A stretch of DNA of 39,167 nucleotides, taken from positions 1 to 39,167 of the forward strand of contig JAYEKW010000103.1 of assembly GCA_034716895.1 (NCBI GenBank), read 5' to 3'. The notes beneath the pieces were generated by a model. It was not told the DNA's origin. It saw only the letters and a program-made list of their open reading frames with translations, and searched no databases. Positions 5,949 through 39,167 of this stretch are shown one piece after another. How positions within the stretch are numbered: position 1 is the first letter of the stretch; every line of letters starts with the position of its first letter. The DNA is from Candidatus Neomarinimicrobiota bacterium (GTDB lineage: Bacteria > Fidelibacterota > UBA8477 > JABMPR01). The translations under genes and the position numbers were made by a program.

Positions 5949-7913
5949 ATGACCTGGTTTAATAATCTTTCTGTAAAATTTAAATTAATTTTTAGCTTTG
6001 GGAGCGCACTCGGACTCCTTACCCTTATTGGTATTGGGGGGGTGTGGGGAATTTCTGGAGTTAGCAGCAAAAGTACTCACACAATAGAACACTTCCTCCA
6101 ACTCAAGGATATCAACCGGCAGATTGATATTACCATGCTCCAGGCTCGTCGCGATGAAAAAAATTTCCTCGCGCACAAAGATGCAAAAGATATCGGCAGA
6201 GTTGAACAGCAGATAAATTCTCTTATAGAGCTGACAGACAAAGCCAAAGAACTCCACATTAGTCAGGATGAAGATGAGAATCTGAGTATCATTGCCCAGC
6301 TGGCTGGAGAATATGTGACTGCATTTCATGTGGTTACATCAAAAATACTGGAAAAAGGCGCAGGCGATAAAGGACTTGTCGGTGAACTTCGGAAAAATAT
6401 TAATGACTTGGAAACCAGACTAAAGCAGTTGAACTCACGCCGTCTGGAGATTGACATGCTCATGTTACGTCGGCATGAAAAAAATTATCTGCAGGAGGGA
6501 ACATCAAAATATCTGGACCAACACGCCGCCGAAATTGTCACTATTAATAAACATATTGATCAAAGTGGATACCGTCCTTCGACCACCAGAGAACTGAAAG
6601 GCCTTATATCAGCCTATGCAGAAGGATTGGATAGAATTGCCCGTATTGATGAAGAAATCAAAAACAATACTTATTTATTCCGAGGGACTATTCGTAAATT
6701 AGAACCTCTTATCCAGGCTGGTATTGAATCCGCTAGCCTTGGAGCAGAAAATGATATCGTAGAATTTCATGCTACAGCACGTTCAATTGAAACGATCATT
6801 ACCGTCGCTGTATTTGTCGGTATTATTCTGGCCATGCTACTTGGCTATTTTACGCTAATGGCTTTAACTAAACCTATTGAGAAGCTTGTTACCACCCTGA
6901 ACCTGGTCGGTGAAAACGATTTCTCTGCCCGTGTTGATCTTAATACTACAGATGAACTTGGCCAAATGGGACAAATCCTTAATGGCGTCATCAAGACGCT
7001 TCAATCAAATAAATCACAACAACAGGAAGTTCAAAGCCAGGTACAATTGAGTACGGGTGATTTGAATTCTGCCGTTTCACAACTTACAGCTGTTGCGACT
7101 GATATGGGTGAAAAATCAAGGAGCATTGCGGACCAGTCCAACATGGTGGCTGCTGCTGCTGAGGAAATGAGTACCAATATGGATACGATTTCCCAGGCTT
7201 CCCAAGGCTCACAGGAAAACCTAAACTCGGTATCTGGTGCTACTGAGGAAATGACTGCCACTGTAGCTGAGATTGCCCAAAACGCAGAACAAGCTCGCGA
7301 GATTACCAACCAGGCAGTCCAGAATGTAGCCACCGCCAGTGGACGTGTGGATCATCTTGGTACAGCTGCCAAGGATATTAGTAAAGTAACTGAAACGATT
7401 GTTGAAATTGCCGAGCAGACCAAATTACTGGCTCTAAATGCCACAATTGAAGCTGCCCGTGCCGGTGAAGCAGGTAAAGGCTTTTCTGTTGTAGCCAACG
7501 AAGTCAAAGAGCTGGCTAAACAGACCAATGATGCTACAGCTGATATTTCTCAGAAAATTGAAGCTATTCAAAGTGGAACCGATGGAACGGTGCAAGAAAT
7601 TGCCTCCATCTCAACTGTGATTGGTAAAGTGAATGATATTGTCAATACCATTGCCACCGCTGTAGAAGAGCAAAATGTAACCACCCAGGATATTGCAGGA
7701 AATATTGGTCAGGCTACATCTGGTATGAATGATATTGTCAATAATGTGACCCAGGCTGCTGAAGCATCCCGGGAGATTGCATCTAACATTGCTACAGTCA
7801 ATTCTGATATCAGCCAGGTCAAACAGACCGCTGATGATTTGAATCAGACGTCTGCTGCTATTGGGAGTACTGGCGATCAACTCACTGAGATGGTCGCACA
7901 AATGAATAATTAG
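5949..7913 (+). CDS. Methyl-accepting chemotaxis protein with HBM-like sensor domain
   Basis: This is a transmembrane chemoreceptor of 654 residues. Membrane segment 1 is at about 12-34 and segment 2 at about 284-306 (VAVFVGIILAMLLGYFTLMA). The periplasmic part is all-helical and carries two copies of the motif R-R-x-E-K-N-F/Y-L (RRDEKNFL and RRHEKNYL), the hallmark of helical bimodular (HBM) sensor domains. Known HBM receptors such as Pseudomonas McpS bind small organic acids; the ligand here is unknown. A HAMP domain follows at about 307-358, then the long signalling coiled coil with the hairpin tip around [20 protein letters not shown]. There is no C-terminal CheR-binding pentapeptide. The signalling domain closely matches those of the next two receptors, so the three probably share one array. 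Confidence 0.93.
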   Translation: MTWFNNLSVKFKLIFSFGSALGLLTLIGIGGVWGISGVSSKSTHTIEHFLQLKDINRQIDITMLQARRDEKNFLAHKDAKDIGRVEQQINSLIELTDKAKELHISQDEDENLSIIAQLAGEYVTAFHVVTSKILEKGAGDKGLVGELRKNINDLETRLKQLNSRRLEIDMLMLRRHEKNYLQEGTSKYLDQHAAEIVTINKHIDQSGYRPSTTRELKGLISAYAEGLDRIARIDEEIKNNTYLFRGTIRKLEPLIQAGIESASLGAENDIVEFHATARSIETIITVAVFVGIILAMLLGYFTLMALTKPIEKLVTTLNLVGENDFSARVDLNTTDELGQMGQILNGVIKTLQSNKSQQQEVQSQVQLSTGDLNSAVSQLTAVATDMGEKSRSIADQSNMVAAAAEEMSTNMDTISQASQGSQENLNSVSGATEEMTATVAEIAQNAEQAREITNQAVQNVATASGRVDHLGTAAKDISKVTETIVEIAEQTKLLALNATIEAARAGEAGKGFSVVANEVKELAKQTNDATADISQKIEAIQSGTDGTVQEIASISTVIGKVNDIVNTIATAVEEQNVTTQDIAGNIGQATSGMNDIVNNVTQAAEASREIASNIATVNSDISQVKQTADDLNQTSAAIGSTGDQLTEMVAQMNN

Positions 7914-7949
7914 GGCGAAAACAAAAGATACAGTGAGTGAGATCACAGG

Positions 7950-8084
7950 ATGAGAATTTTTAGCAATCTAAAAATCAGGGAAAAAATCACGATCCCATTT
8001 ACTGGGATTCTCATTGTGGCTGGTGAATCTTTTACCGGCATTTTAATACTGACGAAACCGCTAGAAGTATCTGAGAATTTATAA
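7950..8084 (+). pseudogene. Receptor N-terminus remnant joined to cheW-like sequence
   Basis: A 44-codon frame begins MRIFSNLKIREKITIPFTGILIV, which matches the start of the following receptor ([17 protein letters not shown]) in register. It then switches to GESFTGIL and stops. The DNA of that second part contains TTTTACCGGCATTTTAA, identical to the cheW stretch coding FTGIL at about 4798-4816. After one shift of frame it keeps reading like the CheW tail (NTDETARSI against KTDTALISI). It therefore looks like the scar of a lost receptor gene plus a cheW fragment. Expression as a small protein cannot be excluded, but no good ribosome site is visible. Confidence 0.6.
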
Positions 8085-8192
8085 AATGTGCCCTAAATCC
8101 ATTAAATACAACCACATATAGTGAATAATCCTAAATCCATATATATCAACACATCGCGTCATTTCGATGAACTCAATACAACGCTCTGCGCG

Positions 8193-8232
8193 CTCTGCCC
8201 GCCCGCACGAAGTTATACGCAGGCGGGCGAGA
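8193..8232 (+). repeat. GC-rich hairpin upstream of the second receptor gene
   Basis: The arms GCCCGCCCGC (8197-8206) and GCAGGCGGGC (8219-8228) pair with one mismatch around the loop ACGAAGTTATAC, and flanking CTCT/GAGAG extend the pairing. The base composition contrasts sharply with the surrounding AT-rich DNA. There is no T-run, so this looks like an inserted repeat rather than a terminator. Confidence 0.6.
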
Positions 8233-8289
8233 GGGACTTTTTGCGGGGGCGTCAATACTGGAAGACAAAAAAAGATAGGAGAATTGTTC

Positions 8290-10341
8290 ATGGCATTGCA
8301 ATTAAATTTACGTGGTAAAATTACCATTCCATTCGCAATTCTTCTGTTGGGCACAATCATCCTTTTCGTGAGTACTTTTTATTTCACCTTCTCAAACATT
8401 TTGGACCAGCTCTCTGCTCGAAGCACCCAGATTAATGCAGGGACTATGGAAAATGACATTGAACAGATCAGTAATAAAGCCTTAGGAATAGCCTCAATTT
8501 ATGCGAGTTCAGCAATAACAAGAGAAGCTTACCGTCTTCACGAATCTGGTAAGCCTCATGATGAAGTGATCTCACAATTATCTGAATTCATGACAAAGAA
8601 CAAAGCCGCATTTGATTCCCAAACGGGAGGAAATCTCAGGGTTCACTTCCACCTACCCCCGGCTCAATCTCTGCTAAGAATTTGGGATGGAAGTGGCGGA
8701 GATGATCTTTCCTCTTTCCGTAATACGATCCTGGATATTTCCAGAAATCATAAACCTATCACTGGCATCGAGGTTGGCCGAGGTGGTTTTGTAATCCGCG
8801 GCCTGGCACCTGTGTTTGCTGAAGATGGCCATTATTACGGATCTGTAGAAACGCTCCTGTCAATTTCCAGTCTGCTCAAGGTATCACGTATCTATGAACA
8901 TGAAGAATTTGCGATTTACATGCAGAAGAACCAGCTTGAAATAGCTACAAAATTCAAGAAAAAAGTTGCTGCCAATTCGGACATTCAGGAAAAAAGTAGA
9001 GGTAACTTCATCTTCTTTGCCAGTTCTTCTGATAAGTTTATCACTGAAAAAGTGACTGAGGAAATGCTGAGCGAGGGATCACATGAACGCACATCTGTTA
9101 AATTTGATGGTGTTTATCTCAGCACATTTCCTATCAAAGATTATTCTGGGAAAACCGTCGGTGTTGGCGTCTACCAGATGGAAGATGTGTGGTTAGAAAG
9201 TCAGATTTCCTCTCGAATGAAATGGGTGATTTTAATCTTTTCCCTGGTGATGGCTGTTGGAATCACTTTCACTGTGTTATTGGCAAAAAATATTTCAACA
9301 CCCATTTTGGATATTAATGCGGCTGCTATAGCAATAGGTGATGGTGATTACTCGGAAGCATTGAAAATTTCAAGGAATGATGAGCTTGGTGAATTAGCCA
9401 AGACCCTTAACAAAGTGGCTCATACACTCTCAACATCAGATAAACAGCGGATTGAGGTCCAGTCTCAGGTTCAACAGAGCACCGAGAATCTTGGGATGGT
9501 AAGTACAACGCTTCAGGATTTGACCAACCGAATGAGTAGTAATTCCAGCAGTATAGCCGAGCAATCCAATATGGTAGCAGCTGCGGCTAATGAGATGAGC
9601 ACCAATATGGATTCTATTGCTCAGTCTTCTCAGAACTCACAGGAAAATATGAACTCTGTTGCCAGTGCAACAGAAGAAATGACAGCGACTGTTTCTGAAA
9701 TTGCCCAAAATGCTGAACAAGCGCGTGAAATAACGGCTGAAGCAGTTCAAAGTGTAACCACTGCCAGTGAGCGAGTTGACCAGCTTGGTCTCTCAGCCAG
9801 AGAAATCAGCAAAGTGACTGAAACCATTATTGAGATTGCTGAACAAACCAAGCTGTTAGCCCTAAACGCCACCATTGAAGCAGCTCGAGCAGGAGAAGCA
9901 GGTAAGGGATTTTCTGTAGTAGCCAACGAGGTTAAAGAGTTGGCCAAACAGACCAATGATGCAACCGCTGATATCTCAGAAAAAATCGAAGCCATTCAAT
10001 CCGGGACTGACGGCACCATCGGGGAGATCAAGTCGATCTCCTCAGTTATAGATAAGGTCAATGATATTGTAAATACCATTGCCACCGCTGTAGAAGAGCA
10101 AAATGTAACGACCCAGGATATTGCCGGGAATATTGGTCAAGCTACCTCAGGTATGAATGATATCGTAAATAATGTTAGCCAGGCAGCCGAGGCTTCTCGT
10201 GAAATCGCAACCAACATTGTTACGGTAAGCACCGACATTGGTGATGTGAAAGAAGCTGCAGGCAACTTGAATCAAACTTCTGTTACCATCAAAAATACAG
10301 GTGATCTATTAACTGATATGGTTGCAAAGTTTAATAAATAA
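8290..10341 (+). CDS. Methyl-accepting chemotaxis protein with dCache_3-like sensor domain
   Basis: This chemoreceptor has about 683 residues. The frame is open further upstream to 8167, but that part reads through the GC-rich repeat hairpin. The ATG at 8290, preceded by AGGAG near 8277-8282, gives the typical receptor start [20 protein letters not shown]. Membrane segments lie at about 10-36 and 311-331. The periplasmic domain contains [24 protein letters not shown] and [18 protein letters not shown], the pattern of the double-Cache type 3 family. A HAMP domain and signalling coiled coil follow. Cache domains bind small ligands outside the membrane; the ligand here is unknown. Its signalling domain is almost the same as in the next receptor, even at the DNA level in patches, which suggests recent duplication or gene conversion. 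Confidence 0.93.
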
Positions 10342-10443
10342 ATGGAGAGTTATGCTATTCATGTGGCGGGTATTCTTCGTATGAACAACTCCCATATTAC
10401 CGGAGGTGCCCGCTGGTTTAATATCCACCGGGGTAATATATAA
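10342..10443 (+). other. 33-codon small frame with hairpin between receptors 2 and 3
   Basis: An ATG directly after the stop of the preceding receptor opens 33 codons (MESYAIHVAGILRMNNSH onwards). I recognise no family. The second half holds a hairpin with arms ATATTACC and GGTAATAT, with further partial pairing inside. This may be an intergenic repeat or a structured spacer in the receptor mRNA. Translation is doubtful, since a frame this short arises easily by chance. Confidence 0.3.
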
Positions 10444-10464
10444 AAATCACAAGGAGATTTTCTC

Positions 10465-12561
10465 ATGAGTAATTTCACAACCAAGTTGGGCAAGGGATTC
10501 GGTTTATTGGATCGATTCAAAATCTCAACCAAAATATTGGCACTTATCATCGTTCCCAGTTTGGCTGCTTTCGTGTCTCTGACAATGGTTCTGAGTGAAA
10601 AGTCCAACGATCTAGAGGTGACAGCAAAGGTTAATTCCCTGGTTGAATATGTTGTCAATACCAGCAGCTTATTGCACGAATTGCAAAAGGAACGGGGAGC
10701 CAGCGCTGTTGTAATCAGTAGTAAAGGAACTCAGATGCGTAGCGAAATCGAGGTTCAAAAACGTGATACTGATGCTGCCCTGGCTAATTTTAATAAATTC
10801 CAGGAAACTTTTAATCCTGGTGATTATAGTCCGGATTTTAAAGATGACTTGTCTCAGTTTAAACGGCTCCTGCTTGATATTACTTCAAAGCGAAATGCTG
10901 TCACTACTTTGACGATCTCAAAGTCAGATGCCGTTAAATACTATACAGCCATTAATAGCTTGATGGTTAAGTCTTTTCAGCAGGCAGGCTTATTGGCCAA
11001 GCACAAAGATTTGCTTATTCCCGCTACTGCCATGATCAACTTTATCTCGGCTAAAGAATATGCAGGAATTGAACGGGCACTCATGTCTGGGATTTGTGCA
11101 GCAAATGTAGCCATTGATCTGGCGACTTTTGAAAAATGGATGATGGTTTGGAAAGGCCAGGCAGCCCTCCTTAACAATTTCGCTTATCAGGCTGAACAAA
11201 GTGTAAGTGATTTTTACAAACAAAAAATGAGTGGTCCTGAAAACGCCGATGTTGTGAAAATTCGGAACATTCTATTGGAAAAAAGTAACTCCGGTCGGTT
11301 TGGCTATAAAGGCATCGAAACATTCGCTACAACAACCCGACGAATAGATATCTTAAAACAAGTTGAGGATTATCAGGCAAACTCGTTGGTTGAACATTCC
11401 AATGACATTTTGAAAACATCTCAATCCACAATGACAAACTTGATCTATGCTGCTGTTCTCATGGCTATTATGATCATCTACTTTGGGTTTATTATTTTGA
11501 ACATGATCACCAGTCAGCTAAAAAATCTGAATGCAGTAACTGAAGACATGGCCTCCGGTCAAGCCAATTTAAAAGATAGACTTCCGGTCAATACAGATGA
11601 TGAATTAGGTATTTTGGCCCGTTCCTTCAATCAGTTTCTTGAGAAACTCGAGAAAAATGATGATACTCAAAAGGTTATTCAGCGAGGTGTCCAAACAGAA
11701 ACAGAAGGACTGGGCGCCATAGTTTCAGATCTCACTACTGTATCCGGTCAATTGTCAGACCGTTCCAGCAACATTGTAGATCAATCAAACATGGTGGCAG
11801 CAGCGGCTGAAGAGATGAGTACAAATATGGATTCTATTGCTCAGTCCTCTCAAAACTCACAGGAAAACATGAACTCCGTTGCCAGTGCAACAGAGGAAAT
11901 GATGGCAACTGTTTCTGAGATAGCTCAAAATGCTGAACAAGCGCGTGAAATAACGGCTGAGGCAGTTCAAAGTGTGGCCACAGCCAGTGAACGAGTTGAC
12001 CAGCTTGGTCTCTCAGCCAGCGAAATCAGCAAGGTTACTGAAACTATTATTGAGATTGCAGAACAAACCAAACTGTTAGCGCTAAACGCCACTATAGAAG
12101 CTGCTCGTGCTGGAGAAGCAGGGAAAGGATTTGCTGTGGTTGCCAATGAAGTTAAAGAGTTGGCTAAACAGACCAATGATGCAACCGCTGACATCTCAGA
12201 AAAAATTGAAGCCATTCAGTCCGGTACAGATGGTACCGTTGCTGAAATTGGATCAATTTCAACTGTTATCGATAAAGTAAATGATATTGTAAACACCATT
12301 GCTACAGCTGTTGAAGAACAAAATGTTACCACCCAGGATATCGCAGGAAACATTGGTATGGCGACTGGCGGGATGAATGATATCGTAAATAATGTTAGCC
12401 AGGCAGCTGAGGCTTCACGGGAAATTGCTCAAAATATCTCAGTTGTGAACAACGATATAGGTGCTGTTCAGGAAACCAGTGAAACTCTAAAAACAACCTC
12501 CACTGCTATCAGAAGCACAGGTGATCAGCTTGGAGATATGGTCGCTAAATTTGATCAATAA
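10465..12561 (+). CDS. Methyl-accepting chemotaxis protein with NIT sensor domain
   Basis: This chemoreceptor of 698 residues starts at an ATG preceded by AAGGAG (10451-10456). Membrane segment 1 is at about 24-45 ([20 protein letters not shown]) and segment 2 at about 325-347 ([20 protein letters not shown]). The periplasmic part has [20 protein letters not shown], the signature of the NIT domain, proposed to sense nitrate and nitrite. HAMP (about 348-400) and the signalling coiled coil follow, including the tip around [20 protein letters not shown]. There is no C-terminal CheR-docking pentapeptide. Nitrate sensing is a family-level expectation and has not been shown for this protein. Confidence 0.92.
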
Positions 12562-13756: not shown

Positions 13757-13864
13757 GACACGAATGGCACTAATCAACTCGAATTTTCACGAATGATTTG
13801 TTATGAATTTAGATCATAAAAATAGACAATTATGTGTTCCGTTCCCTTCGTGGGATTCGTGTCT
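13757..13864. repeat. Inverted-repeat element between cheB and cheR
   Basis: The outer arms GACACGAAT (13758-13766) and ATTCGTGTC (13855-13863) are perfectly complementary, and weaker pairing continues inwards (GGCACTAA against CCCACGAA in the reverse complement). It fills nearly the whole gap between the cheB stop and the true cheR start at 13889. It resembles a small non-coding mobile element or long hairpin. No transposase is present. Confidence 0.6.
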
Positions 13865-13888
13865 AACCCACAGAAACACATTTTTTTC

Positions 13889-14722
13889 ATGAAAAAGATC
13901 AGTCCAGGTGAAATAAAGATATTCATTCCCTATGTAAATAAACTTACAGGGATTGTACTCGATCAGAGCAAGGCATATTTGATTGAGAGTAGGCTTGGAC
14001 CACTCGTAGATTCAATAGGATGTGATACCTACAGTCAACTCTATACCAAAGCCCGTAGCGATGCCAGCAAACGTATCGAAAAGTCCATTATTGATGCAAT
14101 CACCACCAATGAGACCTATTTCTTTCGAGATAAAGCACCTTTTGATCTGCTCAAATTTAAAATCATTCCTGATCAGATTGACAAAATAAAAACAACCCGG
14201 GACATGCGTCCCTCCCTGAGTATTTGGAGCGCAGCATGTTCTACCGGTCAGGAGATATACAGTGTGGGTATGGTTTTGAAGGAGATCATCCCGGATATCT
14301 CAAGATGGCAAATTACCCTGAGAGGTACTGACATATCAGACGCTGCTGTCCTGCAAGCTAGTGGCGGGCGTTATAGCAAAGTGGAAGTCGAACGAGGAAT
14401 GGCTCCTGCGCAAATTCAAAAATATTTTAATCAAGAAGGCAATCAGTGGAAAGTTAAAGATGACCTTAGAGCCATGGTCCAATTTCGTAAGGGTAACCTT
14501 CTCCAGCCTATTCTGGGAATGCCAAAATTCGACATCGTTCTTGCACGTAATGTTGCGATCTATTTCAGCATGGATAACCGGAAGATTATGTACTCACAGC
14601 TTGCCAACCAACTCAAGCCTGGAGGGGCACTCATGATTGGAGCATCTGAATCACTGATGGGCATTTCAGATCGGTTCCAGCAGCAAAATTATATGAACTC
14701 AATATTTTACGCATTAAAATAA
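13889..14722 (+). CDS. cheR: Chemotaxis protein methyltransferase CheR
   Basis: CheR methylates receptor glutamates using S-adenosylmethionine. The frame is open from an ATG at 13832, but that extension reads through the inverted-repeat element. The ATG at 13889 (MKKISPGEIKIFIPYVNKLT) gives 277 residues, the normal CheR length. Visible family motifs are the N-terminal helical domain, TNETYFFRD at about residue 73, the SAM-binding SAACSTGQEIYS at about 114, the acidic GTDISD strand-end and FDIVLARNVAIYF. The expected Asn-Val after the LAR motif is present. It follows cheB in the same direction. No receptor in the cluster has a C-terminal docking pentapeptide, so CheR must recognise them directly. 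Confidence 0.93.
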   Translation: MKKISPGEIKIFIPYVNKLTGIVLDQSKAYLIESRLGPLVDSIGCDTYSQLYTKARSDASKRIEKSIIDAITTNETYFFRDKAPFDLLKFKIIPDQIDKIKTTRDMRPSLSIWSAACSTGQEIYSVGMVLKEIIPDISRWQITLRGTDISDAAVLQASGGRYSKVEVERGMAPAQIQKYFNQEGNQWKVKDDLRAMVQFRKGNLLQPILGMPKFDIVLARNVAIYFSMDNRKIMYSQLANQLKPGGALMIGASESLMGISDRFQQQNYMNSIFYALK

Positions 14723-14730
14723 TGATCAAT

Positions 14731-14912
14731 CTAGCCTGCATTATTCATGAATTATTGCCACGAAGACACTAAGTCACGAAAAGTATTAAAGTTATGAACA
14801 AGGTCATTTTAAACAGTATTATTTGTATCTGTGAGTGATAATTTTTGATAAGCATATATTTTATTAAACTTTGTGTCTTGGTGACTTAGTGGCTATGAAT
14901 TATTTAGGCTAG
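14731..14912. repeat. 182-bp imperfect inverted-repeat (MITE-like) element after cheR
   Basis: The ends CTAGCCT (14731-14737) and AGGCTAG (14906-14912) are perfect terminal inverted repeats. Inside them both arms carry TATTCAT or ATTCAT and then a phrase built from repeats of CACNAAG: GCCACGAAGACACTAAGTCA on the left, and GCCACTAAGTCACCAAGACA when the right arm is read in reverse. The middle is AT-rich. It begins eight bases after the cheR stop. There is no open frame for a transposase, so it would be a non-autonomous element or a long structured RNA. Confidence 0.7.
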
Positions 14913-15088
14913 ACTTGAAAAATAATTGCATGAATACGTTTTGATGAGTATTAATTTTATACAATGCAAACTGGAAGTACCCTCCTGTCGTAGCTCCCAT
15001 ACGACGTGTCGGATAATGGGTTGAGGTGAATTAAGAACTTGTAGTGTTATGACCAAATTATCATGTTAAAGATCATCAATTCAATAGA

Positions 15089-15127
15089 ACCTCTACACTG
15101 CTACGCAGCACCTCTACACGGGGAGGA
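15089..15127 (+). repeat. Dispersed repeat, diverged copy (ACCTCTACACTGCTACGCAG type)
   Basis: The layout ACCTCTACACTGCTACGCAG, then CACCTCTACACGGGGAGG, resembles the repeats at 4262-4304 and 38497-38549: a CCTCT start, a short inverted core and a GGGGAG end. It lies 40 bases before the PilZ gene. The rest of the gap from 14913 shows nothing recognisable apart from CGTAGCTCCCATACG, a small imperfect hairpin. Confidence 0.4.
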
Positions 15128-15163
15128 TTATTCCCGTAGTATAACATATAATTAAGGAACAAA

Positions 15164-15517
15164 ATGGCCTTAGATAAACGTAAACGCTCCCGTGTTCCAT
15201 TTGACGTGGATGTCCATTTCAATACTTCTGAGGATCAGATTCGCTCTAAAAAGCTACAAGATATCAGCATGAGCGGTTTATACTTTGAATCAGATATCAT
15301 CGTTCCACTTGGTACGACAGGGACAGTTAAACTCCACCTTGAATCCGGGGAACAAACCATCATAATTACAGCAAATGGGAAAGTCACGCGATCCATTCCG
15401 GCTGAGCAAAATTCACCAGGTGGTATTGGCGTAGAATTTACTGAAATTGATACGGATAGTTCTATTCACCTCTTCAATGTAATCCGGTACCAACTGGGTG
15501 ATGATTCTCAAACCTAG
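15164..15517 (+). CDS. PilZ-domain protein (predicted c-di-GMP receptor)
   Basis: This is a stand-alone PilZ protein of 117 residues. The two c-di-GMP-binding motifs are intact: R-x-x-x-R as RKRSR (residues 6-10) and D-x-S-x-x-G as DISMSG (33-38), followed by the family's beta-barrel and closing GGIGVEF strand. Binding should therefore be possible. Such proteins pass c-di-GMP levels to motility, surface or secretion machinery. The start is supported by AAGGA about seven bases upstream. It sits between cheR and the EAL-HDOD gene, separated from each by an inverted-repeat element, so it is part of the chemosensory neighbourhood but may be transcribed on its own. Its partner cannot be told from the sequence. 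Confidence 0.88.
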   Translation: MALDKRKRSRVPFDVDVHFNTSEDQIRSKKLQDISMSGLYFESDIIVPLGTTGTVKLHLESGEQTIIITANGKVTRSIPAEQNSPGGIGVEFTEIDTDSSIHLFNVIRYQLGDDSQT

Positions 15518-15732
15518 TGTTAAGTTAAGTCTGTTCCTCACGGTGTGGTAAGAAGCCGCAGGAGTTTTTGGGGATAACAAGGCGAATATTTTGAGCATAG
15601 CCACTTGTGTTGAGCTTGTCGAAGTATAGCTATAATCCAAATATTCAACGTGGTTCCTGAGCACTGCCGAAGGGCAGTTAGGCGCAAAAAGAACGAGACT
15701 CACTTGCGATATATCAGGGTTAACTTGACACT
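15516..15732. repeat. 217-bp imperfect inverted-repeat element after the PilZ gene
   Basis: The terminal arms AGTGTTAAGTTAAGTCTG (15516-15533) and CAGGGTTAACTTGACACT (15715-15732) are complementary at 15 of 18 positions. Further inward, CGAATATTTTGAGCATAGCC pairs loosely with the segment around CTATAATCCAAATATTCAAC. The apex holds GTTGAGCTTGTCGAAG, a phrase that recurs elsewhere in the window. The left arm starts inside the PilZ stop codon. No coding capacity is visible. Another phrase, GCAGTTAGGCGCA (near 15675), recurs at 26276. Confidence 0.65.
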
Positions 15733-15833
15733 GGGACGATGTCTATGATTTTAATAAATATTCAAGATATCACAATGAACCGTAGATATTCAAAGCGTAG
15801 GCATTCAATTCAAAAAGGACAGGTACTTTATAC

Positions 15834-17045
15834 ATGTCGCTAATAGTTGGAAGACAGCCAATCCTTGATCAAAATGGTGTAACTTTCGGTTACGAGTTAC
15901 TCTATCGTGGAGATGTCGATCATGCTTTCGATAGTCTCCATGAGGATGAAGCTACCTCGCATGTGATCAATAACTCCTTTTATAATACAGAATTTGGGAG
16001 TCTCACATCAGGGAAAAAAAGTTTCATTAATTTTACGACCCAACTGATTCTGGATGAGATGTGGCGGGTTCTCCCCAAACAACAAGTCGTGATTGAGTTC
16101 CTGGAAAACATTAAACCGACTGCTGAAATTATTACTGCTGCTGAGATGATTAAAAGCCAGGGCTACACGTTGGCTCTGGATGATTTTGAATATGCCCCTG
16201 AACTGGAACCATTGATCGAATTAGCTGATATCATCAAAGTAGATTTCACCATCAGCGATATGCATACTGTTGAGCAATTAGCCAAAACTTACCTGCCCCA
16301 GGGGAAGATCCTGTTGGCCGAAAAGGTGGAGACTCTAAAAGAGTTCAAAGCAAGTCGTGACTGGGGATACACCTTGTTCCAGGGTTATTTCTTTGCAGAA
16401 CCAGAGATCATTGAGTCAGAACAAATCCCCGAATCAAAAGCATCTAAATTGCAATTGATGCAAAAGATTCATAAGCAAGATATTGATTTTGGTGAATTGG
16501 TTGATGTCCTGAAAACTGATCCTAGCTTAACCATGAAACTATTAAAGTACATCAATTCAGTCTCAATGGGTATTCGCCATGAGATCACCAATCTGCGACA
16601 AGCCCTGGCCCTGATCGGTCTTGTAAATTTTAAAAAATGGGCGACAGTGCTCACCATGGCTTCCATATCAGATGATAAACCGAAGGAATTGATGAAACTT
16701 TCATTGTTGAGAGGTCGTTTCTGCGAAATCCTAAGTGAAGAATTAGGCCTGGAAGATCAAAGTTCTGAATATTTCCTAACTGGGATCTTTTCTCTGATGG
16801 ATGCCGCGTTTAACAAACCCATGGAAACAATTGTGGCTGACCTGCCACTGTCAGATGAGATCATCGACACCCTATTGGGTAATGAGACTAAAATTCAGAA
16901 TGTCCTGAAGCTTTCTCAATTACTCGAAACGGACGGCGAGATAGACGATCAACTCAGGTTATTGAACAATAAGATATCCCAATCCAAATTGTTTGATGCC
17001 AACCGAGATGCCATAACCTGGGCCGATGAGATCTTGCGACTATAG
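15834..17045 (+). CDS. EAL-HDOD protein with degenerate EAL domain (YuxH type)
   Basis: The 403-residue protein joins an N-terminal EAL-like domain to a C-terminal HDOD domain, the YuxH architecture. The opening VGRQPILDQNGVTFGYELLYRG is typical. The EAL signature itself is ELL (residues 21-23), and the canonical DDFGTG metal and catalytic motif is DDFEYA, so c-di-GMP hydrolysis is unlikely and binding is uncertain. The HDOD half shows LVDVLKTDPSLTMKLLKYIN and ITNLRQALALIGLVNFKKW. HDOD proteins are regulatory and contain no assured catalytic activity. The gene closes the plus-strand chemosensory region. Next to PilZ it points to c-di-GMP-linked signalling, most likely as a scaffold or sensor. 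The start lacks a strong ribosome site, although AAAGGACAGG lies about 15 bases upstream. Confidence 0.88.
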   Translation: MSLIVGRQPILDQNGVTFGYELLYRGDVDHAFDSLHEDEATSHVINNSFYNTEFGSLTSGKKSFINFTTQLILDEMWRVLPKQQVVIEFLENIKPTAEIITAAEMIKSQGYTLALDDFEYAPELEPLIELADIIKVDFTISDMHTVEQLAKTYLPQGKILLAEKVETLKEFKASRDWGYTLFQGYFFAEPEIIESEQIPESKASKLQLMQKIHKQDIDFGELVDVLKTDPSLTMKLLKYINSVSMGIRHEITNLRQALALIGLVNFKKWATVLTMASISDDKPKELMKLSLLRGRFCEILSEELGLEDQSSEYFLTGIFSLMDAAFNKPMETIVADLPLSDEIIDTLLGNETKIQNVLKLSQLLETDGEIDDQLRLLNNKISQSKLFDANRDAITWADEILRL

Positions 17046-17177
17046 GGAGATTTGCTTCGCCCAAGGACAATGCTGATATATTGATACAAGGATAAATCCC
17101 AACACCATAAGGTCATGGAAGGCGTCTCCTTCTGACTGTATTTTACCTCTGCTTAATTGGATCTTTATTGCAGGTGG

Positions 17178-17370
17178 AATAATACCAAATTCAGCTTCAA
17201 AGGTGCGCTATAAGTTCAAAATATTTTTTCGTTTAGAAGCTTCATAATTTGAAGTATAGCGATAGCTATGGTGAAAAAATTAAGTGTGATATACTGAGTT
17301 CATCGAAGTACACTAAAACGGGAAAAATGCAGAAGTTTAGTGCATGTTTGAGGTCCACTTGGTATAATTC
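17178..17370. repeat. 193-bp imperfect inverted-repeat element after the EAL-HDOD gene
   Basis: The arms begin GAATAATACCAA (17178-17189) and end TTGGTATAATTC (17359-17370), with one mismatch. Pairing continues inwards: CTTCAAAGGTGCGCTATAAG and the TTTTTTCGTTTAG that follows match, loosely but in order, the reverse complement of the right arm (CCTCAAACATGCACTAAAC, then TTTTTCCCGTTTTAG). The apex holds several smaller hairpins, including one with the GAGTTCATCGAAG phrase. It lies in the gap between convergent genes (17046-17466); the rest of that gap shows no gene. Confidence 0.65.
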
Positions 17371-17466
17371 ACTCTGGTATGTTAGAATTCATGTCCAGTA
17401 AGCCTAAGTACCTTTGTGGCTATATACGTAAAATATACTTGCGGTTAACATGGGCCGGTCTAATAG

Positions 17467-38549: not shown

Positions 38550-38592
38550 CTTGGCAGATCACAAACTATCTTATTTATGGCTCATCGTCAGA

Positions 38593-39166
38593 ATGCGTAC
38601 CTCAGAGTTAATTGGATTGTCAGGAAGTTTCCATCTTTTACTCAGATCCAGATTCCCTGAAGGGGAATAATCAGAATAGCCACGGGTGTAACCCGTGGTA
38701 AATGAACCACAATAATTGCAACCCCGGAGGGGTTGAACAATACTAAAGCAAATTTTTTTCATCAAATTTTACCCAGCATATTTCATAAAGAAATGCACCT
38801 TTTGTACGCCCTCATGAAATATGCGTGCTTTCTCATGTTCTATTGAAACCAGTTTAGTCGCAACGGAGTTGCTCCGGAAACTGGTTGGTATGGTGACTGG
38901 CCTGCTTTTTAACGTATTCAATTAAATCATCCTTTGTAGAGAATATGATCTGATACAATATGTGGGTGTCACGGTTGACAGGGTTAAACTCCTTCAGAGT
39001 TTGTTCTGTTTCTTGATTCTAGGTACTACGGGTTGCACCCGTAGCTATTCATATTTAATCCATTTCGACAAAGCTCAATGCACCGCCTTCGGGATATTTC
39101 TTTAGCAGATAAATCAGGTCTCATTCACCATTTTGACGCTTCTTCCTATGACCCCAGGTACGCATT
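38593..39166. repeat. About 574-bp gene-free zone of nested inverted repeats
   Basis: No gene is visible here. The outer pair is AATGCGTACCT (38593-38603) and AGGTACGCATT (39156-39166). Next inside, the reverse complement of about 38661-38700 (ACGGGTTACACCCGTGGC, TATTC) matches about 39026-39052 (ACGGGTTGCACCCGTAGC, TATTC). Further in, CAACCCCGGAGGGGTTGAAC corresponds to AAACTCCTTCAGAGTTT. Two local hairpins occupy the middle: GCATATTTCAT/ATGAAATATGC (38776-38824) and AACCAGTTT/AAACTGGTT (38847-38886). The order of pairs is symmetric, as in one large imperfect palindrome. The window ends one base later, so the element may continue. Confidence 0.6.
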
Positions 39167-39167
39167 T

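Follow-up and report, generated by a model that had tools for sequence, protein, structure and literature searches.

The window analyzed here, a stretch of 39,167 bp, is contig C103 of a Candidatus Neomarinimicrobiota MAG that totals 3.45 Mb in 258 contigs. It carries genes for CheB, CheR, PilZ, an EAL-HDOD protein, and, in convergent orientation, a HATPase, all with Pfam support. A preliminary description had placed a different long inverted repeat in the gap behind each of the first four genes, and we find something at each of these positions, although only three of the four (E2, E3, and E4) stand far above chance. The features are as follows.

13757..13864, no strand assigned: E1, gap after cheB; weak imperfect inverted repeat of the phrase type (GACACGAATGGCACTAA / TTCGTGGGATTCGTGTC)
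13832..14722, + strand: cheR (PF01739); the likelier start is 13889, an equivalent ATG being used in relatives
14731..14734, no strand assigned: left target-site duplication of E2, CTAG (copies aligned with flanks)
14735..14908, + strand: E2, gap after cheR; MITE of 174 bp, CCTG...AGG, with (CACNAAGN)n phrases in its arms and IS1380-type ends (multicopy, fold)
14909..14912, no strand assigned: right target-site duplication of E2, CTAG (copies aligned with flanks)
15514..15734, + strand: E3, gap after pilZ; palindromic element with terminal inverted repeats (TIRs) CTAGTGTTAAGTTAA...TTAACTTGACACTGG and the phrase GAGCTTGTCGAAG at its tip (relatives in own genome, fold)
17180..17182, no strand assigned: left target-site duplication of E4, TAA (copies aligned)
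17183..17364, + strand: E4, gap after the EAL-HDOD gene; MITE TACCAAAT...CTTGGTA with a 23-nt phrase of the ACTGAGTTCATCGAAGT type in its 3' arm (multicopy, arm covariation)
17365..17367, no strand assigned: right target-site duplication of E4, TAA (copies aligned)
17403..17462, + strand: E5, solitary right end from a further MITE-like family whose TIR, in the inward direction, is AAACCGGCCCATGTTATCCG (alignment, genome matches)

For E2, the limits first given (14731-14912) are right to the nucleotide, both 4-bp duplications being included, whereas those of E3 (15516-15732) fall two bases short at either end. As originally described, the sequences differ from gap to gap, E2, E3, and E4 representing separate families, and we found no coding capacity in any of them. 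The predicted folds of E2 (z = -6.5), E3 (z = -3.2), and E4 (z = -6.1) were each equaled by 0 of 200 shuffles. An Rfam search of the window returned a tRNA as its sole match and no curated structured-RNA family for the elements.

The CheR protein is 82% identical to those of two other Candidatus Neomarinimicrobiota MAGs (L109 and L110). The gene order is cheB-cheR-pilZ-EAL in L110, with gaps of tens of bases apart from ≈200 between pilZ and EAL, and cheB-cheR-EAL in L109, again with gaps of tens of bases; none of E1 to E4 is present in these gaps. L109 has no pilZ between cheR and the EAL-HDOD gene. The cheB-cheR gap is much shorter in both relatives than in the window, and because cheR probably starts at 13889, E1 lies inside the true gap. 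Upstream, at 5949-12561, three consecutive methyl-accepting chemotaxis-type genes (one Pfam-checked) share 300-bp stretches that are 74 to 88% identical and represent a recent tandem duplication.

E1 has neither the multicopy state nor the significant hairpin of a MITE. Its 17-nt arms match at 82%, its fold (z = -1.1) is equaled by 26 of 200 shuffles, and its self-inverse alignment score is matched by 21 of 200. We found no further copy in its own genome or 19 relatives and saw no target duplication; two 3-mismatch matches in the genome do not make it a convincing member of a phrase family. E1 is probably a decayed insertion remnant.

Copies, target-site duplications, and a candidate mobilizer

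E2 is short and noncoding (174 bp, no open reading frame) with inverted ends, and its self-inverse alignment score is 36 versus 17 ± 2. One of its phrases, CACGAAGACACTAAG, has 130 genome matches at two or fewer mismatches compared with nine for a reversed control. Our literature search found no paper about either CACGAAGACAC or GAGCTTGTCGAA, and a phrase scan of viral contigs gave 18 matches. The host genome holds at least 23 full-length copies at 97 to 99% identity and about eight more that are split or at contig edges, a lower bound because 40 of 85 candidates were scored. In an alignment that takes in the flanks, the invariant stretch is CCTG...AGG, and the 4 bp immediately to its left match the 4 bp to its right exactly in 20 of 22 copies (chance 1/256 per copy). 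The flanking bases vary (CTAG, TTAA, TTAG, CTAA, ATAG, ATAA, CTAT, and TAAA; mostly YTAR). Since the flanks are equal within a copy and different between copies, they are target-site duplications.

The E2 family is patchily spread, being abundant in two of 20 genomes of the family, whereas the remaining genomes searched have none or short phrase matches only (G017). In the sister genome G016, 40 or more matches were recovered at 89 to 93% identity, likewise with 4-bp duplications. Two of the G016 copies (L193 and L204) have unequal flanks, TTAG/CTAA and CTAA/TTAG, which is the pattern of recombination (inversion) between copies. E2 copies are also nested within copies of E3 (C77), E4 (C86 and L196), and E5 (L037/L029). 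One copy (C212, L045) was considered as an autonomous element, but its 550-bp insert is noncoding and 93 to 97% identical to a palindrome-rich repeat of ≈550 to 600 bp (CAACCCCGGAGGGGTTG, ACCCGTGG) at the contig end of the window, 38572-39167. Single-mismatch TIR matches in G000 (C37, C257, and C48) proved not to be element pairs.

A candidate mobilizer is found in G016, where contig C30 carries cttaaCCTGAATAATTCATAG followed by a 397-residue open frame that matches IS1380 transposase profiles (NF033539, E = 1.5e-100; PF13701, 2.7e-138). The end of this element, ttaaCCTGAATAATTCATAG, is identical in 16 of 16 nucleotides to the right end of E2 read inward and adjoins TTAA. The contig breaks within the transposase gene, so this is the one end visible and the second lies off the contig. 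Judged by this sequence match, the G016 IS1380-family element is the probable mobilizer of E2, replacing IS5 or IS701, which had been guessed early as the parent from the YTAR duplications. A PF01609 search of the window's own MAG recovered no IS1380 gene.

E4 occurs at about twenty places in its own genome and has matches in six of the 20 genomes searched. The family ends are TACCAATT...AATTGGTA, flanked by an exact 3-bp TWA duplication (TTA or TAA) in 18 of 20 copies and, when more copies were aligned, in 30 of 37; the extra 23-nt phrase in the 3' arm is a feature of the window copy. We found no parent element. A PF01609 search of three draft genomes placed only nested IS4, IS1182-like, and IS5 elements at E4 ends, and these were rejected as parents because they are themselves nested in E4, the IS4 with an 11-bp duplication (GATTGTAAAAC). 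In G019, the three kinds are each inserted in E4 copies (L303, L310, and L312), as if the hairpins were landing sites. A G016 copy (L196 1-160, contig C65) contains a minisatellite made of five or more tandem units of GTGTGCCATACTGAGTTCATCGAA, a 24-bp version of the window copy's phrase, and has an E2 nested beside the repeats between TTAG duplications. This minisatellite copy lies in a matching neighborhood, with a HATPase-like gene (31% identity) and then an identical tRNA.

The left CTAG of E3 includes the TAG stop codon of pilZ. E3 has several relatives in its own genome, the best at 84% over 149 bp, with common ends CTAGTGTTATGTTAAGC...TTAACNTGACACTAG. Most have CTAG at their ends, and because nearly every copy has it at both, a duplication and a palindromic end are indistinguishable here. 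In some copies the GAGCTTGTCGAAG phrase is missing and the tip has a plain CATAGCC...TAGCTATAG, which makes the phrase look as if it was inserted later. The C77 copy is split by the nested E2, and no parent element was found. Certain short phrases (GCTGAGTTCATCGAAGTA; GCCTGCCTGCGTGGAGACCGACTTCGGCATAGGCAGGC) recur as insertions in more than one MITE family, at the tips or in the arms, E3 and E4 tips included (e.g., L089, L091, and L096), a modular exchange between families. The E5 region (17402-17466) matches more than 20 places in its own genome at 83 to 92%; where an E5 end adjoins the remnant of a transposase gene (L308), it points away from that remnant. The three MITE families differ in age, with E4 older than E2.

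We consider it likely, with a probability of roughly 88%, that a different nonautonomous MITE was inserted in the gap behind each of cheR, pilZ, and the EAL-HDOD gene and that the gap after cheB probably holds a decayed remnant, the elements having moved by cut-and-paste with transposases supplied in trans and being tolerated between genes. The families would differ in their signatures, namely IS1380-type ends with a 4-bp YTAR duplication for E2, CTAG ends for E3, and a 3-bp TWA duplication for E4, and an IS1380-family element such as that of G016 would be the likely mobilizer of E2. What we observed directly is that the elements are multicopy, have duplications, and occur nested, that two relatives lack them, and that a transposase gene adjoins ends of the E2 type. 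The transposition reaction itself and neutrality for the host are what we infer.

Hairpin arms and copy positions

The arms of E4 covary strongly. Among 19 copies, both sides change in 26 of 53 predicted pairs, and 94.0% of cells are paired compared with 84.7 ± 0.6% after shuffling (0 of 500) and 38 to 49% in slid controls. Among 37 copies, with a pairing register that favors neither strand because it was set by aligning the consensus with its reverse complement, Watson-Crick pairs changed on a single side 54 times to G-U and 11 times to A-C (p = 6e-8), and the 26 unpaired columns, few as they are, showed no matching mutational bias (24 versus 21). Because G-U pairing on one strand corresponds to A-C mismatching on its complement, the excess points to just one of the two, as a single strand, as the target of selection. 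For both E2 and E4, one strand also folds better (-46 versus -26 kcal/mol for E2 and -54 versus -31 for E4).

These data suggest present or past selection of the E4 hairpin in single-stranded form. We consider it possible, though only tentatively, that in the mobile element E4, and perhaps also in E2, selection acts on the hairpin in this form, as transcribed RNA or as a single-stranded DNA transposition intermediate, beyond the double-stranded ends alone. DDE transposases of the IS1380 and IS5 kind act on double-stranded ends, however, and E4 copies show no orientation bias with respect to host genes; the events were counted on an arbitrarily rooted tree of paralogous copies among which recombination may have occurred. 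Somewhat more doubtful is the specific version in which the 158-nt hairpin of E4 is selected on one strand, as RNA or single-stranded DNA, and spread needs a structured transcript or single-stranded intermediate plus the TWA-duplicating ends. If the wobble bias holds, it would provide a test, from sequence alone, of single-strand selection on bacterial MITE hairpins, which is usually debated with predicted folds as the only evidence. E4 does not become a regulator of the host through this covariation; the hairpin is a property of the element and not of these genes.

Correction of one arm by the other at the DNA level, through template switching or hairpin repair, could also keep palindromes matched without selection. 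The 39 double Watson-Crick to Watson-Crick changes on the E4 tree would fit such a process, as would the slippage-type length variants in the arms of G016 E2 copies. It would restore Watson-Crick pairs, however, with no favoring of G-U over A-C expected on one strand, and we regard it as unlikely.

The preliminary description had proposed targeted insertion or a shared role in 3' ends, mRNA stability, or termination. Long stable RNA hairpins do follow soon after three stop codons here, and a weak terminator-like match lies within E3 (15544). A scan for intrinsic terminators (G+C stem plus U-run) nevertheless found none at E1, E2, or E4, and the two relatives have the same genes without elements. 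Where both neighbors could be called, E2 copies occupy 11 tandem, six divergent, and five convergent gaps, with five same and six opposite orientations in the tandem gaps (read by hand); E4 copies occupy nine tandem (five same, four opposite) and six convergent gaps. With such mixed gap types and orientations, a position 3' of a stop codon is no rule, and closeness to the stop, although true of the first three gaps, does not extend genome-wide. Spread across the genome, the copies of E2 to E4 resemble parasites that have landed there rather than signals marking the ends of genes. Terminators or mRNA-stabilizing structures after each operon gene are thus highly improbable, as are other regulatory RNAs, with no Rfam match and no position or orientation bias, and ends and target are specific to each family. 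Insertion stands, given the copies, the duplications or conserved ends, the nesting, and the empty sites in relatives; the targeting of gene ends does not. Single-copy status without compensatory changes, which would have counted against the elements, is found in E1 alone; E4 has many such changes. The tempting view of the elements as 3'-end regulators of a chemotaxis operon is thereby removed.

To our knowledge, REPs are not flanked by target duplications of this kind. Spread of REP/BIME-like repeats by a RAYT (Y1) transposase is the least probable reading, for despite the short palindromes with common phrases and the separate ≈550-bp palindrome-rich repeat of similar look at 38572-39167, the units here are 158 to 220 bp with target duplications, whereas REPs are palindromes of 20 to 40 bp (PMC3733652).

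Relation to known mobile elements

The nonautonomous insertions described here belong to a known kind, the MITEs, and the families are new. A poorly studied marine phylum thereby gains several sequence-defined families whose target specificities and relative ages can be stated, along with a candidate IS1380 mobilizer for E2. Of the new facts, the E2 family with its YTAR duplications and this likely mobilizer are the most secure. Bacterial MITEs such as Correia/NEMIS, ERIC, and RUP (reviewed in PMC2229807) share the size of 100 to 200 bp, the intergenic location, TIRs, target duplications, and transcripts predicted as long stem-loops. They have other sequences, and most have TA at their termini in contrast to the 4-bp YTAR or 3-bp TWA duplications here; the strand-specific covariation measured here is a further difference. 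BrickBuilt of Porphyromonas gingivalis (PMC4596501) is a MITE with a minisatellite, like the G016 copy of E4, but it has a 23-nt unit, IS5-type TIRs, irregular duplications, and an unrelated sequence.

The exact 3-bp TWA duplications of E4 recall the IS5/PIF-Harbinger group, as PIF/Harbinger elements make TWA duplications (PMC4482050), although we found no E4 transposase and the ends TACCAATT match no IS here. E2 most resembles the IS1380 family and its MITEs, prokaryotic relatives of piggyBac, in the 16-nt end identity, the TTAA neighbor, and 4-bp duplications around a TA core. It differs in preferring YTAR over TTAA alone, in lacking a transposase, and in its 174-bp length with arms of 8-bp phrases. 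The piggyBac target is TTAA and rarely TTAG, CTAA, or TAAA (PMC10813416), and all four are present around E2 copies.
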